This document shows, piece by piece, positions 42,304 through 50,150 of a stretch of 64,000 bases of DNA (within the stretch, counting starts at the first letter, position 1; the number at the start of each line of letters is the position of its first letter). This DNA comes from Glycomyces sp. YM15 (GTDB lineage: Bacteria > Actinomycetota > Actinomycetes > Mycobacteriales > Micromonosporaceae), in assembly GCF_016918015.1 (NCBI RefSeq), contig NZ_JAERMK010000016.1, positions 22,822-86,821 of the forward strand, read 5' to 3'. The notes beneath the pieces are model-generated. The model saw only the letters and a program-made list of their open reading frames with translations. It was not told where the DNA came from and made no database searches. A program made the translations under genes and the position numbers.

Positions 42304-42870
42304 ATGCGTCACGAAGTCGAATGCAAGTACCGCCTGGGCGACCCCGCCGAACTCGTCATCGCCCGCCTCGCCGGCCACGGGGCCATCTGGTCCGATTCGA
42401 AGCTCCAGGATGACCAGGCGTACGCCGAAGTTGGCTGGAGGCACGGCATGGCGAAAGTCGGATACACGTTCGCGCGCCTCCGCACCGAGAACGGGACGCG
42501 GACGTGGTTCACGGTCAAGGAGCCCCGGGTCAACAGCATGGCCAGCCTTGAGCAGGAAACCGAAGTGCTCGACCGTGACGCCATGCACGAAGCGCTCCTC
42601 ATCATGGGTTACCGGCCGACCGTCCGCATCCGCAAGACCCGCCGGGCCGCCACCGTCGACGGGATCGTGATCTGCCTCGACGACGTGGAAGGCCTCGGAA
42701 TGTTCCTTGAAGCGGAAGTCATGATCGGTGAGGATGCCGACGCGATCGCCACGCAAGCACTGCTGCATGAGCGGGTGACCGCGTTCGGATTCGACCTCGA
42801 GCGCGTCGAGGACACGTACGACACGCTGCTGGCGAACGCCAGTGGTGCCGCGTCTGCGATCGCGGCGTGA
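42304..42870 (+). CDS. CYTH-domain protein (CyaB-like)
   Basis: The 188-residue protein begins MRHEVECKYRL, the ExExK signature in its EVECKYR form typical of class IV adenylate cyclases. FARLRTENGTRTWFTVKEPR, RIRKTRRAATVD and LGMFLEAEVM with the paired Glu ligands follow. It differs clearly from the CYTH protein at 36.3 kb, so the two are not recent duplicates. The product nucleotide or phosphate substrate is unknown. Confidence 0.88.
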   Translation: MRHEVECKYRLGDPAELVIARLAGHGAIWSDSKLQDDQAYAEVGWRHGMAKVGYTFARLRTENGTRTWFTVKEPRVNSMASLEQETEVLDRDAMHEALLIMGYRPTVRIRKTRRAATVDGIVICLDDVEGLGMFLEAEVMIGEDADAIATQALLHERVTAFGFDLERVEDTYDTLLANASGAASAIAA

Positions 42871-44012: not shown

Positions 44013-44169
44013 TTGAGACTGTCACATCGTGGCAAGTTCGCACGTAGTTCCTCTTCGAGTAGATCACACCACGATACGACTACAACTCGCAAATGATCTG
44101 GGAAAATGATGAGCATTTCGCATAGAATTGAGACACCTCAAACGATTCAATGCGAAGGACGCCCCAGTC
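44013..44169 (+). promoter_or_regulatory. AT-rich promoter region of the Rnl1-type ligase
   Basis: The region between the HNH-like gene and the RNA ligase is conspicuously AT-rich for this window, especially at 44080-44130 (for example AAATGATCTGGGAAAATGATG and CATAGAATTG). It very likely holds the ligase promoter. The -10-like CATAGAAT at 44121-44128 is a candidate, with the -35 unclear. Confidence 0.4.
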
Positions 44170-45369
44170 ATGCTCGCTCTTTCTACTGTCCTTGATGGAC
44201 TCAACGATGCGATTCGAGACGGTCTCGTTACCGCTCGGTGGCACCCCACGCTGCCGTTGACCGTGTACAACTACACGAACGCCTGCCAGTACGCGTGGGC
44301 GTGGACTCCGATCACGACCGCTGCCCGTGGCCTGGTCATTGACGACCACGGGCAAGTCGTTGCTCGCCCGTGGGCGAAGATCTTCAACGCACATGAGCAC
44401 GACCGCGGCCATGCTTTCGCCCCGCCGCTGCCGGACGAGCCGTTCGAGGTGTACGAAAAAGTCGATGGGTCCCTCGCCATCATCTTCTGGTACCAGGGCG
44501 CATGGCGGGTCGCCACGCGGAGCACGTTTGAGTCCGCGCAAGCGCAATGGGCGCAGGCGTGGCTTGACAAGTCCGACACCAGCCGCCTGATCCCTGGCGT
44601 CGTGTACCTCGCCGAGGCCGTGTACCCGCTCAACCGGATCGTGGTCGATTACGGCCCGCGTGAAGACCTCGTGCTGCTCGGCGCGACTCGTTCGGACGGG
44701 TCGGAGTTGCGACTTGCGGAAGCTGCCGAACACTGGCAGGGGATCGGGTCAGTCGTTACGGCGTTCCCGCCGGTGACGTTCCTGGAGTTGTCCCGGCGAG
44801 CCGCCGCCGGTCTTGACCTGACTGGTAAGCCCGTGACCGGCATCGAGTCGGAAGGCTGGGTCATCCGCTACGAGTCCGGTCTGCGCGTCAAGGTCAAGAA
44901 CGAAGACTATGTGCGGCTTGCCGCCGTCGTCGGCGAGATCGGCACTGAGGACGTGTGGCGGTGGACAGCAATCGCTAAGTTCGGCCCGCACTTCCCCGTG
45001 AAGGTGCTCGCCAGGATGCTTTCCTGCCCGTGGTCGGACATTCTCGACCTCGACGGTGACTTCGAAGCCCCCTCACGAGCGGTCATCGAGCAGATCCCCG
45101 ACGAGTACTACCAGCAGTACCGCGACGCTGTCACCCGGTTCGAACAAGAGGCCAGCGCTGTGGTGGAGACCTTGCGGAGCGAGTTTGACCGGCTGCGGCA
45201 TTTGACCGACCGGACCGTGTTCTCGGCTGAGGTGCGGAAGATACCGGACCCTACTGTCCAGCAAGGCCTGTTCCTGCTCTTTGACGGCCGCGACCGGTCA
45301 GTGGAACTGCATGCGTGGAAAGCCGTACGGCCCAAACCTGAGCGGCTGTTCCGCACGTTCAGCTCCTAG
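44170..45369 (+). CDS. T4 Rnl1-type RNA ligase
   Basis: The 399-residue protein resembles the T4 RNA ligase 1 family (PF09511). ARGLVIDDHGQVVARPWAK with IFN precedes the adenylation motif YEKVDGSLAII (Lys97 the predicted nucleophile). GVVYLAEAVYP is motif III-like, ESEGWVIRY motif IV, and RVKVKNEDYVRL motif V. A C-terminal helical domain of about 140 residues follows, as in Rnl1. Rnl1 repairs broken tRNA anticodon loops. The ATG at 44170 has AAGGA 10 bases upstream; a TTG at 44128 is a poorer choice. A terminator follows. The Ro60, Y RNA and RlaP genes lie within 5 kb. Confidence 0.9.
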   Translation: MLALSTVLDGLNDAIRDGLVTARWHPTLPLTVYNYTNACQYAWAWTPITTAARGLVIDDHGQVVARPWAKIFNAHEHDRGHAFAPPLPDEPFEVYEKVDGSLAIIFWYQGAWRVATRSTFESAQAQWAQAWLDKSDTSRLIPGVVYLAEAVYPLNRIVVDYGPREDLVLLGATRSDGSELRLAEAAEHWQGIGSVVTAFPPVTFLELSRRAAAGLDLTGKPVTGIESEGWVIRYESGLRVKVKNEDYVRLAAVVGEIGTEDVWRWTAIAKFGPHFPVKVLARMLSCPWSDILDLDGDFEAPSRAVIEQIPDEYYQQYRDAVTRFEQEASAVVETLRSEFDRLRHLTDRTVFSAEVRKIPDPTVQQGLFLLFDGRDRSVELHAWKAVRPKPERLFRTFSS

Positions 45370-46635: not shown

Positions 46636-48261
46636 CTAGAACGGCCAGGTGGCGTTCCGCCCGGACTCAAGCAGGCCGATCAAGCGGAAAGCCGCGTCCG
46701 AGAAACCGCCGAACTCGTGCCGGTTTCCAGACCCGGTCGGCATGGCCGCGTTCGCGTACCCGACCAAGTTCCACCCGTAGACGGGGATGTTCGCCGGGAC
46801 TGCCGAGTTCACGTCCCGCCCGTAGTACCCGGACATCGTCTGCATGTCCGACAGCAGCACCACGCGGTCATGCCCCTTGAACGAGCGACGCATCGACTCG
46901 CCAATCTCGGTGCCGTGCCCGACTTCACCGACGCGCTTGCAGAACCGCTGCACCTCCTGCAGGACCGACCCTCCCTTGGGAATGTCATGCCGGAACGTGC
47001 CGGAAGCGAACCCGACAAGGTCAACGTTCGCGCCCCGATAGGCAAGCGCGACACCGAACAGTGCCGCGGCCTGCACCGCCGACACCTGCGACCGCGCCGA
47101 CAGCTTCGCCCCCATGGACGCGGACGTGTCCACCAGGACCAAGGTCCGGCCGGGCAGCGCGGGGATGTTCTCGCACGCCGTGTCCAAAGCCCGCTCGAGC
47201 GCATGCCCCCACCGGAGCGACGGCGCAGCCAGGTACGCGGACAGGAACCGGAACGGCAACTGCCGCGACCGGCGAACCTGGTCAGGGTCGGCGATCCGCG
47301 CGGCCAGCGTCGCCGCCGCAGCGTCGGACACACCGGCTTCGTCCATGGCCCGAAGGTTCCGGATCGCGGCCATGTAACCCATGGACGGCATCAGGGCCTC
47401 CCACAGTCGGGCCTTGTCCACGCTGTCACCGGCGAGCGACAGCGCGTCCTCCCACGTGAACCCGGCGGCCTTCAACCGGTCCGCGTCCAGCAGGACACGC
47501 AGGTTGTCGGCAGCGTCGGCGCGCAGCTGCCGGTTCGCAGCGATCATCTCCAGCGACTGGGGCAGCGGCACGTCATTGTCGAACCGGCGGTTCTGCAGGA
47601 ACGCGAACAGGTCGTCCTGGCGGGTGTCACCGGGGACCGCATGCACCCGGTTGAGGACGTCAGCGAACCGGAGGCCCTTCGATGCCGTGTCGTACTTCAG
47701 TGCCGCGTACTCGGTGTACAGCCGCCGGGTCGCGTCCGCGATGCCGCGCTTGACGGCTTTCGGCTCGTTCCGGCCGAACCGGGAGTGCCAGTACGCCAGG
47801 AACTCGCCGGGCTCGTCCGCGCGCTGCAAGACCGAAGCGACGATCTGCCGCGGCGTCGACGGCACTACCGTCGCGCTGAACTCGTCGTCCAGGTTGAGAC
47901 GCACCTCCTGGTACGCGGCAGGGTTCGCGATGAGGGCCTTGACGGCCTCGGCTGCGCCAACGAGAGACGCCGACCGCATGTTCGCGCCGTTGCGCAGCCA
48001 CGCGAGGAACCGCACAGTCCACTCACGGTCGACTAGAACGACGTCGCGGATCAGTTCAGCGAAGCGGGAGTCGCGGTCGCCCGCAGGCTCATAGAAGGTG
48101 GCTTCGCCGACCATGTTCGAGACCGCAAGCAAGAAAAGTTCCGACTTAGCGTCCCGCGCGAAGCCGGGACCGCCTTCGAACGTGGTCGTGGACGGGGTCG
48201 TCTCGGTCCGGACCGGGGAGGTCACCGCGGCGCGCGTGGTCGGCTTGTTGAACTTTGCCAT
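46636..48261 (-). CDS. rsr: Ro60-family RNA-binding protein (TROVE domain, Rsr)
   Basis: Ro60 forms a ring of HEAT-like helices that holds Y RNA outside and threads misfolded RNA ends through its centre; bacterial Rsr works with exonucleases and in RNA repair. The 541-residue product has the TROVE region (RDAKSELFLLAVSNMVGEAT, WTVRFLAWLRNGANMRSAS, AVKRGIADATRRLYTEYAALKY) and a C-terminal von Willebrand A domain with the MIDAS motif VLVDTSASMGAK near residue 377 and VVLLSDMQT. The length matches Deinococcus Rsr. The ATG at 48261 lies at the end of a terminator hairpin whose arm contains the only AAGGA. A Y RNA gene is directly upstream. Confidence 0.95.
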   Translation of the reverse strand: MAKFNKPTTRAAVTSPVRTETTPSTTTFEGGPGFARDAKSELFLLAVSNMVGEATFYEPAGDRDSRFAELIRDVVLVDREWTVRFLAWLRNGANMRSASLVGAAEAVKALIANPAAYQEVRLNLDDEFSATVVPSTPRQIVASVLQRADEPGEFLAYWHSRFGRNEPKAVKRGIADATRRLYTEYAALKYDTASKGLRFADVLNRVHAVPGDTRQDDLFAFLQNRRFDNDVPLPQSLEMIAANRQLRADAADNLRVLLDADRLKAAGFTWEDALSLAGDSVDKARLWEALMPSMGYMAAIRNLRAMDEAGVSDAAAATLAARIADPDQVRRSRQLPFRFLSAYLAAPSLRWGHALERALDTACENIPALPGRTLVLVDTSASMGAKLSARSQVSAVQAAALFGVALAYRGANVDLVGFASGTFRHDIPKGGSVLQEVQRFCKRVGEVGHGTEIGESMRRSFKGHDRVVLLSDMQTMSGYYGRDVNSAVPANIPVYGWNLVGYANAAMPTGSGNRHEFGGFSDAAFRLIGLLESGRNATWPF

Positions 48262-48266
48262 AGGAA

Positions 48267-48301
48267 AAGGGGGTCCTTCCGCATAGCGGGAGGACCCCCT
48301 T
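48267..48301 (-). terminator. terminator between Y RNA and rsr
   Basis: In the leftward direction a 16-bp stem with one wobble pair (48267-48282 with 48286-48301) and a 3-base loop is followed by TTTTCCT and then the rsr ATG. It should end the Y RNA transcript. The rsr ribosome binding site candidate GGAAGGA lies in its downstream arm, so read-through messages would have it masked. Confidence 0.85.
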
Positions 48302-48306
48302 GTTGC

Positions 48307-48458
48307 CATAGTGGATGCCCGAGAATAAGTCGGCGCGGGGAAACGTAGCGCTCTAGGCCACTGAGCTACCCGCCCTTGCGGGCGGGCCGGGATTCGAACC
48401 CGGGTCACTCTCTTAGCAGGAGAAGTAACCCGCGCCTGCGCACCGGGCATCCACTATG
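48307..48458 (-). ncRNA. yrlA: bacterial Y RNA (YrlA-like) with permuted tRNA-like module
   Basis: Ends 48307-48321 and 48444-48458 form a perfect 15-bp stem; after an internal loop, 48332-48339 and 48429-48436 form 8 bp more. Inside, read leftward, come an anticodon-arm-like hairpin (48424-48408, loop CTGCTAA), a T arm (stem CCGGG, loop TTCGAAT, 48403-48387), a 7-bp acceptor-like stem (48386-48380 with 48375-48369) closed by GCAA, and a D arm (GCTC, loop AGTGGCCTA, GAGC, 48366-48350). This is tRNA in permuted order, with the acceptor end sealed, as expected for tRNA-mimicking Y RNAs. The Ro60 gene follows directly. It cannot be a working tRNA, since no CCA end can form. Confidence 0.88.
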
Positions 48459-48477
48459 CAAAGGTCAGTCCTCCCGA

Positions 48478-48508
48478 GAATTAGGCGGCCACGGGTGTAT
48501 CGCGTCAA
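48478..48508 (-). promoter_or_regulatory. putative promoter of the Y RNA
   Basis: On the minus strand TTGACG (48508-48503) and TAATTC (48483-48478) are separated by 19 bases; a one- or two-base shifted -10 gives 17-18. The expected start falls near 48470, about 12 bases before the terminal stem of the Y RNA. Confidence 0.5.
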
Positions 48509-48597
48509 TACCAGAAATTGATGAAGTATCCGTAACCTTCGCACCGGGAGGCGCGTCTCCAAGTTTAACGCACTGTACCTGTTGCAGGCCAAGGGAT

Positions 48598-48645
48598 ATT
48601 CGCGAATGTAGTCGCGACTACACTTTGCACAGTGTTGCACTGCAA
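48598..48645. promoter_or_regulatory. palindromic operator-like cluster
   Basis: Three symmetric elements are packed here: ATTCGCGAAT (48598-48607), a perfect 16-bp palindrome TGTAGTCGCGACTACA (48607-48622), and TTGCACTGCAA (48635-48645) with a second TTGCAC ten bases earlier. They lie 90-140 bases upstream of the Y RNA promoter and just downstream of the nucleotidyltransferase stop, so they could bind a regulator of the Y RNA-Ro60 unit. Confidence 0.5.
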
Positions 48646-48712
48646 CGACAGTGCAGGACGGAGCATCAACCGAGCGCGTCACTGCGTATGCCGCATCGCC
48701 CGGTTGAAAACC

Positions 48713-49495
48713 CTAGGCAGCATCCCAGTGGCGACGGTGCGCTGCCACTGCCCAAGCCGACACGCGCTCCACATCGGCAGAGGGACGCAACGGCGTCCGA
48801 CTGGCGTCCAGTGCCGCGGCGGCTCGCGCGCGAAGGTCAGCGACCTCAGCGAACACGTCCTCGAGGCTGACGCCGCCGGTCTTGATCGCCAGCGCCCGCT
48901 CTCGGTCAGGGGACCGCATCGGGAGGGTCAACGTGCCGTCTTCGGCAAGTTCGACTGCTTCGGCGCCGAGCCGGTAGGCGTGACTGGCGGCTTTCACGTC
49001 GAAGCCCCACTTCTCGATCAGTTCGGTCCGGACGGGGATGCGGTGCTTGCGGCCTTCACCTTTGAGCTGGTCCACTTGACTGTCGAGGAACCCGAGGAAA
49101 CGACGGACGGCCTGCTGGGACACGACCGCGGGCGCGAGCGCTCGGAGTTCCCCGCCGAGCTCCGTCGACGCATACACCGACGATTCGGGTGCGTACAGGG
49201 GCACGAGCAGGTTCGGGTTGCCGGCGACGACCAAGGTGAGGAATTTCCGCAGACTGTAGATCGTGCCTTCGGAGTCGTCGGCTTGCGACCGGTGGCCTTC
49301 CGGCTGGTCGCGCCACACGTACTGTTCGATCGCGCCGGCGAGGCCGATGACATGCTCGGCCGGTTCGATGAACACGCCGATCTCATCCCGGTCGCTCACC
49401 CCGGGGATCGCAAGGCCGTGAACGCCGGACCCGTCGAGGGTCCGCAGGATCGTGTTCGCGCGGGCGATCGCGCCGCGGTCAGTGTCGGTGGTCAA
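48713..49495 (-). CDS. RlaP-type nucleotidyltransferase (RNA repair pathway)
   Basis: The 260-residue protein matches the predicted nucleotidyltransferase family PF10127 (DNA polymerase beta superfamily, RNA-repair associated). LDGSGVHGLAIPGVSDRDE contains the GSG-x2-HG-x5-SDxD active site, then IGVFIEPAEHVIGL. SLRKFLTLVVAGNPNLLVPLY and the later KAASHAYRLG helix are typical of the family, which occurs beside RNA ligases and Ro60. Its reaction is not established. The most plausible start is TTG at 49495; no ATG or GTG precedes the conserved part at a suitable position. It lies upstream of the Y RNA-rsr unit in the same direction. Confidence 0.85.
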   Translation of the reverse strand: MTTDTDRGAIARANTILRTLDGSGVHGLAIPGVSDRDEIGVFIEPAEHVIGLAGAIEQYVWRDQPEGHRSQADDSEGTIYSLRKFLTLVVAGNPNLLVPLYAPESSVYASTELGGELRALAPAVVSQQAVRRFLGFLDSQVDQLKGEGRKHRIPVRTELIEKWGFDVKAASHAYRLGAEAVELAEDGTLTLPMRSPDRERALAIKTGGVSLEDVFAEVADLRARAAAALDASRTPLRPSADVERVSAWAVAAHRRHWDAA

Positions 49496-49637
49496 GGTGG
49501 TGATCCGTTCTGATGGGGCAGAGAGTTGACGGTAGTCGCGGGGGGAGCAGGCATCGCGACCAAGTTTCGGCCGTTCGGCTGCCGCCCTTGTCGTCTCGGG
49601 GGAGTACGCGTGGCGCATTCGCCCGGAGAATGGTCGG

Positions 49638-50150
49638 ATGGATATCGAGGCGTTCATTCGCGCGGAGATCGACGCTAATGAAGCGTGGGCGCTGGCATGC
49701 TCGGTCCCACCGGTTGAAGGGCAGGACTTGGTCAGCGGCGGTGTGCACTGGCAGTGGGTTCGCGGTCCTGAGGAAACGCCGATCCCCGTGCCGCGGATGC
49801 CGCCCGACGACACCGAGTTGCCACTTGCCGAGTACGGCACCTTGGTCTGGCTTGCAACGAAGGAAACCTGGCCAGTAGAGGACCCTGAAGGAGAAACCGT
49901 GGAAGTGACAGGCGGCTACTCGGCCGGCATCCACGACTTGGACCTCGCCGCGGCCGCGAGCATCGCCCGCTACGACCCCGCACGTGTCCTCGCCGGCGTC
50001 GCGACCAAGCGCGCCCTGCTCGAGCTGGTGCTTGCCGACCAGAACGCGAACGGTGGGAAGAACTCGGACGCCTGGAACCAGGTGATGCGCCTCCTGGCGT
50101 TGGAGTACCGGGACCGTCCGGAATACCGGAAGGCGTGGGCGCCGCGGTAG
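49638..50150 (+). CDS. DUF6221 protein
   Basis: The 170-residue protein fits DUF6221, a streptomycete family: an N-terminal helix DIEAFIRAEIDANEAWAL, an insertion rich in Pro, then ASIARYDPARVLAGVATKRAL and a terminal VMRLLALEYRDRPEYRKAW. The function is unknown; it is frequent on plasmids and prophages. It starts at ATG 49638, divergent from the nucleotidyltransferase gene. Confidence 0.82.
   Translation: MDIEAFIRAEIDANEAWALACSVPPVEGQDLVSGGVHWQWVRGPEETPIPVPRMPPDDTELPLAEYGTLVWLATKETWPVEDPEGETVEVTGGYSAGIHDLDLAAAASIARYDPARVLAGVATKRALLELVLADQNANGGKNSDAWNQVMRLLALEYRDRPEYRKAWAPR

Follow-up and report, generated by a model that had tools for sequence, protein, structure and literature searches.

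A predicted YrlA-type Y RNA with an anticodon arm in its permuted tRNA-like head, upstream of a Ro60 gene in Glycomyces sp. YM15

Results

The Ro60 locus and its surroundings

The window analysed here is a 64,000-nt stretch of contig NZ_JAERMK010000016.1 from Glycomyces sp. YM15. Within it, a Ro60 gene is preceded on the same strand by two tandem genes for predicted Y RNAs, and RNA-repair genes lie on both sides of this set (Table 1). The Ro60 product was identified by its TROVE domain (PF05731, E = 2.4e-17, 63.7 bits, cut-off 23); a vWA match (VWA_2, E = 2.3e-5) scored 25.4 bits, just under the cut-off of 27, and a MIDAS-type DTSAS motif was present. The protein also matched phrog_850 (2.3e-48) and the TROVE structures 9l5y/9kop in the PDB (2.7e-17), while PADLOC returned no match for it. 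It was the sole Ro60 match in the genome of the window (on contig C8), and the nearest of 15 named genome loci was the Ro60 of Glycomyces amatae, 79% identical. The ATG at 48261 is located 45 nt beyond the tRNA-like Y RNA on the same strand, that is, 46 positions past the last base of the RNA, exactly where an earlier note on this DNA, made from the letters alone, had placed it.

Table 1. Position of the features of the Ro60 locus in the window
Feature	Position	Strand	Basis
T4 Rnl1-type RNA ligase, motifs KVDGS, EGWV, VKVK	44128..45369	+	PF09511, 4.1e-13
Ro60 (TROVE, probable vWA, MIDAS-type motif DTSAS), 541 aa	46636..48261	-	Pfam, PHROGs and PDB matches
Hairpin between Y RNA and Ro60 start, GGAAGGA in 3' arm	48267..48301	-	-28.8 kcal/mol, z -5.7
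Predicted YrlA-type Y RNA with complete permuted tRNA-like head ("closed" type)	48307..48458	-	Fold, RF02553 match, module search
Terminal (Ro60-side) stem, 5' strand, pairing with 48307-48321	48444..48458	-	Pair probabilities 0.94-1.0; covaries in relatives
U8-A9, D arm (GCUC-AGUGGCCUA-GAGC), position 26	48349..48368	-	Aligned to YrlA consensus
7-bp acceptor stem, 3' strand first, GCAA-closed, without CCA end	48369..48386	-	Probabilities 0.97-1.0
T arm CCGGG-UUCGAAU-CCCGG	48387..48403	-	Sequence, YrlA match, pair probabilities
Variable region UGAC; C48 would pair with D-loop G15	48404..48407	-	15-48 pairing in relatives
Anticodon arm UUCUC-CUGCUAA-GAGAG, triplet GCU at 48415-48417	48408..48424	-	Loop, U33 and stem as in relatives
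Second, short predicted Y RNA without tRNA-like head, tandem upstream	48467..48551	-	Ro-side motifs, weak Deinococcus match
Perfect 16-nt palindrome TGTAGTCGCGACTACA, candidate operator	48607..48622	-	Expected 0.02 per window at <=1 mismatch
RlaP, RNA-repair Pol-beta nucleotidyltransferase (N-terminal start uncertain)	48713..49840	-	PF10127, 1.7e-22; phrog_388, 1.6e-47

To the right of the set, PHROGs matches pointed to a phage-type gene for replication initiation and to genes for GIY-YIG, exonuclease and RecT proteins; on the left lie chromosomal genes, LigA among them. PHROGs yielded neither capsid nor terminase for the window proteins submitted to it, and the locus is therefore called a phage-derived island here rather than a proven prophage. 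A tblastn search with the window replication protein against phages found nothing.

The rlaP gene lies upstream of the Y RNAs on the same strand, and the ligase gene beyond Ro60 on the opposite strand. The ligase scored 50.1 bits with PF09511 (cut-off 28.3), and KVDGS, EGWV and VKVK are presumably its nucleotidyltransferase motifs. No RtcB or RtcA match was obtained among the window proteins given to Pfam. Near the ligase gene, a CYTH-domain protein (PF01928) is encoded at 42304-42870. RlaP is predicted to restore lost nucleotides ahead of ligation (PMC7824862).

Linkage of such genes to Ro60 was assessed by single-sequence searches of flanks of unequal length, in which RlaP was found near Ro60 in 7/147 loci and the Rnl1-type ligase in 1/147, the window's own locus being counted in both. 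These numbers are too thin for a fixed Ro60-repair operon, and this candidate was set aside. Both genes are widespread among phages (529 phage records for RlaP, 371 for the Rnl1-type ligase), so that finding them at this locus means less; the main support for the repair link comes from the window itself. In Streptomyces phage Kela, an annotated RNA ligase directly precedes the Ro gene and was missed by the single-sequence search.

Fold and YrlA identity of the tRNA-like Y RNA

Folding of the 152-nt RNA (48458-48307, minus strand) yielded a minimum free energy (MFE) of -83.7 kcal/mol against -58.0 +/- 4.3 for shuffled sequences (z -6.0), none of the 200 shuffles being as stable. The 15-bp terminal stem drawn by hand in the earlier note was recovered as perfect, with pair probabilities of 0.94-1.0. 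Its inner stem was likewise present, with 7 bp in the MFE structure rather than the 8 proposed. In the single-sequence fold, the T stem had pair probabilities of 0.57-0.99 and the D stem was weak (0.32-0.33).

The covariance-model search that the earlier note had suggested was carried out with cmscan on 48150-48720 (571 bases). RF02553 (YrlA) gave a significant match to the core (E = 4.9e-6), at 35.3 bits and thus below the family cut-off of 69; a whole-window Rfam search at the family cut-off gave no match. The match covers model positions 27-81, comprising T arm, acceptor and D arm in permuted order with the tRNA loop bases, and together with the fold it bears out the proposed order of T arm, GCAA-sealed acceptor and D arm. 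The gathering score of 69 was reached in 0/296 genomes of the phylum. Matches at E <= 0.001 occurred in 82 of the 296 (best 56.2 bits), part of these being tandem tRNA genes as judged by eye (e.g., L021, L029).

The permuted order of T arm, acceptor and D arm was found at one place in the window, the Y RNA, and four times in total in 40 dinucleotide-shuffled windows (about 0.1 per window). Since about one chance case arises per ten shuffled windows, the module order by itself is no proof; the case is carried by fold, YrlA match, gene order and relatives. ARAGORN found no tRNA genes in the 64-kb window. On its sequence, 48307-48458 (minus strand) is a YrlA-type Y RNA, in a structural variant with an anticodon arm.

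The short RNA upstream and the frames of relatives

The short RNA at 48467-48551 shares lower-stem motifs (CCCGGUGCG...GG.UACUUC...CUCGGG) with the tRNA-like Y RNA and with the 89 short frames of relatives described below. Its match to the Deinococcus Y RNA model was weak (24.2 bits, E = 0.055, cut-off 80). Because its own fold was not significant (z -1.0), its assignment as a second Y RNA is comparative.

Upstream of Ro60 genes, 236 frames of the Y RNA kind were collected, 213 of them distinct: 124 with a tRNA-like head and 89 short ones without. The frame finder was loose; by eye, the "short" frame of L065 resembles coding sequence, and that of L092 is a tRNA-like head that the T-loop pattern failed to catch. 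In a test in which the search motif fixes two of the seven pairs, the terminal stem was paired in 828/868 cells of the tRNA-like frames (shuffled mean 674, max 703) and in 579/623 cells of the short frames (shuffled mean 489, max 505). One short plus one tRNA-like frame was the commonest arrangement (34 loci, near-duplicates counted). The prophage GD43A-5 record carries about five Y RNA frames in a row, as counted by eye.

Candidate regulatory elements

The hairpin between the Y RNA and Ro60 is terminator-like, and the GGAAGGA in its 3' arm is purine-rich; it could stop transcription of the Y RNA, mask the ribosome site, or do both. The terminator scan did not call it. Immediately ahead of the Ro60 start, folding reached z < -2 in 63/142 loci, own and near-duplicate loci included, using mononucleotide shuffles, simple-pattern start codons and the start position only. 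The hairpin with a GGAAGGA-type site in the window and its relatives is a possible attenuator or translational switch. The palindrome upstream of the Y RNAs is a possible operator of the Y RNA unit, and a near copy, TGTAGTCGTAACTACA, was seen by eye upstream of the Glycomyces relative L035. Scans for sigma70 promoters and terminators found none; TAAACT at 48562-48567 was picked by eye as a candidate -10 box.

The anticodon arm and its conservation

In the window, a 5-bp stem with a 7-nt loop carrying U33, followed by a 4-nt variable region, directly precedes the T arm. All three arms named in the earlier note were present, and an anticodon arm in addition. The inner three pairs of the anticodon stem had probabilities of 0.79-0.95 and the 7-nt loop was formed in the MFE structure; the outer two pairs as drawn had 0.02 and 0.49, an alternative register being favoured. 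The head seems to be a tRNA with all four arms, its point of permutation lying between the D arm and the anticodon arm.

Relatives were collected using a module search for T arm, acceptor and D arm that is blind to the stretch before the T arm. The plus strands of loci L001-L177, fetched for Ro60 or Y RNA likeness, and the window segment were searched. From 162 places, 146 distinct modules were obtained; six without a Ro motif were set aside (by eye, four resemble tRNA pairs or unrelated sequence and two Y RNAs), and the remaining 140 were reduced to 113 below 85% identity. A perfect anticodon stem with a 7-nt loop (variable region 4-5 nt) was present in 47/113 modules, compared with 0-5/113 for loops of 4-6 and 8-11 nt and with a mean of 3.1 (max 9) in 100 dinucleotide shuffles. 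U33 occurred in 46 of these 47 arms, versus 26% of shuffled cases, and the perfect arms carry 25 different triplets. With one mismatch allowed, 77/113 modules had the arm, 70 of them with U33 (shuffled means 22.3 and 5.8). By source, these 70 comprise the window (1/1), phage records (8/15), plasmids (3/3), genomes (13/21) and viral contigs (45/73), shares that follow where searching was done. As 43/113 modules had no such arm even at 4/5 pairs plus U33, the arm is not required everywhere.

Loop positions outside the selection were tRNA-like: a pyrimidine at 32 and a purine at 37 in 43/46 each, and A at 38 in 42/46. The tertiary pair 15-48 was G-C or A-U in 39/42 perfect modules (shuffled mean 21.7, max 31). 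An alignment of 36 of these 42 (A3; six were omitted by the analyst) had C-G in 23 rows, U-A in 12 and another combination in one. The whole A3 structure gave 199 double-change cells, against 57.8 when shuffled and 27-40 when slid. Stem-pairing counts from the 80 closed modules, the 42 perfect modules and A3 were made on modules that had been selected for their pairing, a bias that does not touch U33, positions 32/37/38 or the 15-48 pair. The modules are kin by descent, and the counts represent non-independent events.

A score far below that of other Y RNAs, combined with stems lacking covariation in homologs, had been named in the earlier note as speaking against its reading. The stems covary, so that at most half of this combination was seen, and a permuted tRNA-like Y RNA next to Ro60, as the earlier note had proposed, is borne out by the YrlA core match, the Pfam TROVE neighbour and the covarying stems. 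The anticodon arm, the second Y RNA, the hairpin before Ro60 and the RNA-repair neighbours were absent from that note.

Open and closed topologies

In the Rfam YrlA consensus (full-length matches), the strand before the T arm pairs with the strand after the D arm, which makes the anticodon stem continuous with the lower stem and leaves no anticodon loop. The window Y RNA can form at most 3/5 pairs of this open form, versus 5/5 for the local anticodon arm of the closed form. A tally of 118 modules gave 34 open, 82 closed (looser rule; 80 with U33) and two that were neither; a stricter filter had removed 28 of the 146, including many true Y RNAs. Both forms occur together in single clusters (L002, L130, L164 and Xanthomonas phage Olaya). 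The closed form was found in 2/9 Ro60 loci from other groups, with two copies in Xanthomonas phage Olaya and one on a Deinococcus taeanensis plasmid, where 4/5 open pairs fit too. A module-like match in a Microcystis phage was rejected as a real tRNA pair. ARAGORN on un-permuted modules was discarded as a test for the arm: it called a tRNA in 80/80 modules, but also in 68/80 with the arm shuffled and in 25/34 un-permuted open-type modules, and is therefore uninformative on this point.

Origin of the tRNA-like heads

Bodies and triplets of 70 closed modules were compared with the 47 tRNAs of the genome to which the window belongs. Agreement between triplet and body exceeded chance, with a mean isotype rank of 7.3 (shuffled 10.15, min 8.16) and agreement of the best match in 9/70 modules (shuffled 4.0, p = 0.009). 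Stop anticodons were found in none of the 70. A34, which is rare in bacterial tRNAs apart from ACG, occurred in 7/70 loops (AGG three times; ACC, ACG, ACT and ATG once each). Some heads thus retain a trace of the tRNA they came from, while the triplets drifted. For the window head, tRNA-Ser(gct) came out on top over the whole length (0.71), but with free gaps this comparison is biased towards long tRNAs, and the body taken alone gave no support for Ser parentage.

Spread and annotation

By tblastn, Ro60 relatives were found in 80/50,697 phage records and 23/72,556 plasmid records, some records duplicating one phage. The earlier note had called a phage or plasmid location unusual for the pair, a view that these records do not support. 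Y RNAs had already been found in mycobacteriophages, according to a paper that cites Chen et al. 2014 (PMC12282133). A Streptomyces sp. NBC_01558 plasmid (L003), outside the 23 Ro60 plasmid records, carries a closed-type Y RNA with triplet GTC.

Four annotated phage tRNAs located just before Ro genes overlap permuted modules (L002:3813-3891, Thr-tgt; L056:2704-2775, Arg-tct; L170:1667-1741, Arg-cct; L171:1745-1835, Pro-tgg), and are probably misannotations. ARAGORN on the 80 closed modules in native order made 26 tRNA calls. The model R1 matched 389/394 genomes of the class at E <= 1e-4; it was set aside for mapping the class, as tandem tRNAs probably fit it. In the window's own genome, a contig without Ro60 holds two more tandem permuted T-acceptor-D modules (L178, C2:4800-5400, minus strand), with acceptor loops ACCACAA and ACCACAT that contain a CCA-like end. 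Read by eye, these are either orphan open-type Y RNAs or permuted tRNA-like genes.

Discussion

The RNA resembles YrlA (RF02553) in its place next to Ro60, its long terminal stem and the order of T arm, acceptor and D arm, and differs from it by a complete anticodon arm before the T arm and a score below the family cut-off. In circularly permuted tRNA genes of red algae and archaea, the 3' half also comes first and the transcript is cut anew to give a functional tRNA, whereas here the module is GCAA-sealed inside a larger stem. The Deinococcus Y RNA is not known to carry a tRNA-like head. In the Deinococcus RYPER complex (Rsr-Y RNA-PNPase), the Y RNA tethers PNPase to Ro60 (PMC8058203; PMC4726728); the short upstream RNA of the window is weakly similar to this Y RNA. 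In the family, Rsr/Ro60 binds the Y RNA stem and tRNA enzymes modify the tRNA-like domain (PMC8394870; PMC8058203; PMC4726728), and tRNA mimicry by YrlA is already known (PMC8394870; PMC12282133). The Salmonella rsr-yrlBA-rtcBA operon similarly unites Ro60, Y RNAs and RNA-repair enzymes (PMC7790460); at the Glycomyces locus, RlaP and an ATP-dependent Rnl1-type ligase are found instead, with a Y RNA that has an anticodon arm.

The triplet varies while the loop shape stays constant, which points to recognition of tRNA shape rather than decoding, and selection seems to keep loop shape rather than decoding identity. From the observed anatomy, conservation and gene order we infer binding, partner and effect as follows. 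The full explanation that we favour, with a probability of roughly 0.6, is a tRNA mimic that is tethered to Ro60 and works in RNA repair or quality control. The two tandem Y RNAs and Ro60 would form one ribonucleoprotein unit, in which Ro60 would hold the lower stem of the Y RNA, as known for the family. The head of the second RNA would be a full tRNA mimic: with its acceptor closed by a tetraloop it would presumably not be chargeable, and it would keep the D/T-loop elbow bases and the anticodon arm with a normal U-turn-type loop. Such a head could serve as the docking site for a protein that binds tRNAs by their overall shape. The most likely partner would be an enzyme of RNA processing or repair, a part that PNPase plays in the known Deinococcus machine and for which RlaP and the Rnl1-type ligase are candidates here. 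Docking would let Ro60 present damaged or misfolded RNA to the enzyme, or would hold the enzyme back. This explanation is supported by the YrlA core match with a TROVE gene 45 nt downstream by the anticodon arms, 15-48 pairs and covarying terminal stems of relatives, and by the RNA-repair genes on both sides. It is weakened by the YrlA score below the cut-off, the weak D stem, the 43/113 modules that lack the arm, the thin linkage of RlaP and ligase to Ro60 and the kinship of the modules.

Possible, though on balance unlikely, is a bait or inhibitor of anticodon nucleases, of which the uncharged loop would occupy, or be cut by, the host's tRNA-cutting defences while RlaP and Rnl1 mend the real tRNAs. 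Normal anticodon loops with many triplets, the adjoining RlaP and Rnl1-type ligase and the many copies in phages would fit, although viral collections were searched most. The Salmonella authors suggest YrlA as a competitive inhibitor of an anticodon nuclease, one named possibility among several, and report that YrlA was uncut by the active nuclease (PMC7790460). The absence of cutting argues against a bait, as do the rarity of adjacent repair genes and the A34 loops (7/70), by which the triplets are no simple copy of targets. In a wider form, doubtful as it stands, actinobacterial mobile elements, joined by a Deinococcus plasmid and one or more Xanthomonas phages, would display batteries of complete, uncharged permuted pseudo-tRNAs with varied anticodons on Ro60. 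These would lure or sense defences that cut anticodons and, together with RlaP and RNA ligase, would make up one tRNA-protection system.

The anticodon arm might also be a leftover of heads copied from host tRNA genes, with no role of its own. The agreement of triplet and body above chance and the lack of stop anticodons among 70 modules would be expected of such copies. We consider it improbable, given that U33, purine 37, A38, stem covariation and the 15-48 pair outlast the drift of triplet and acceptor, and that the body of the window head does not point to Ser.

Far less probable still is a cis-acting leader controlling Ro60 rather than a free RNA. The strong hairpin directly before the start codon, with folds of z < -2 at that place in 63/142 loci, would suit a leader, but hairpin and Y RNA are distinct elements, the Y RNAs are tandem and vary in number, and the Streptomyces plasmid carries a copy without Ro60. 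A tandem tRNA gene junction, or a permuted tRNA gene giving a working tRNA, is hardly credible: such pairs do imitate the motif, as model R1 illustrates (389/394 genomes), and of five loci away from Ro60 three were tandem tRNA-Asn and two lacked a module, yet ARAGORN finds no tRNA in the window, both acceptor strands pair together across 4 nt, and the flanks are Ro-stem sequence with neither D or anticodon arm nor CCA.

In the open-licence literature, we found no description of an anticodon arm in YrlA or in a permuted module, and none joining permuted tRNA with Y RNA. We regard the anticodon arm in a permuted Y RNA module as new, although an earlier description is a real possibility.

The finding bears on annotation, as phage tRNA calls overlap such modules and the Rfam cut-off passes 0/296 genomes of the phylum. 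This class also bears on the purpose of the tRNA-like head in bacterial Y RNAs. Its full anticodon arm, with constant loop shape and changing triplet, would provide matched RNAs that have or lack the loop, in some cases from the same gene cluster, and these would allow bait, repair-platform and tether models to be compared directly. With an anticodon-like loop that is absent from the standard family model, the suspected role of these Y RNAs in RNA repair would become testable.
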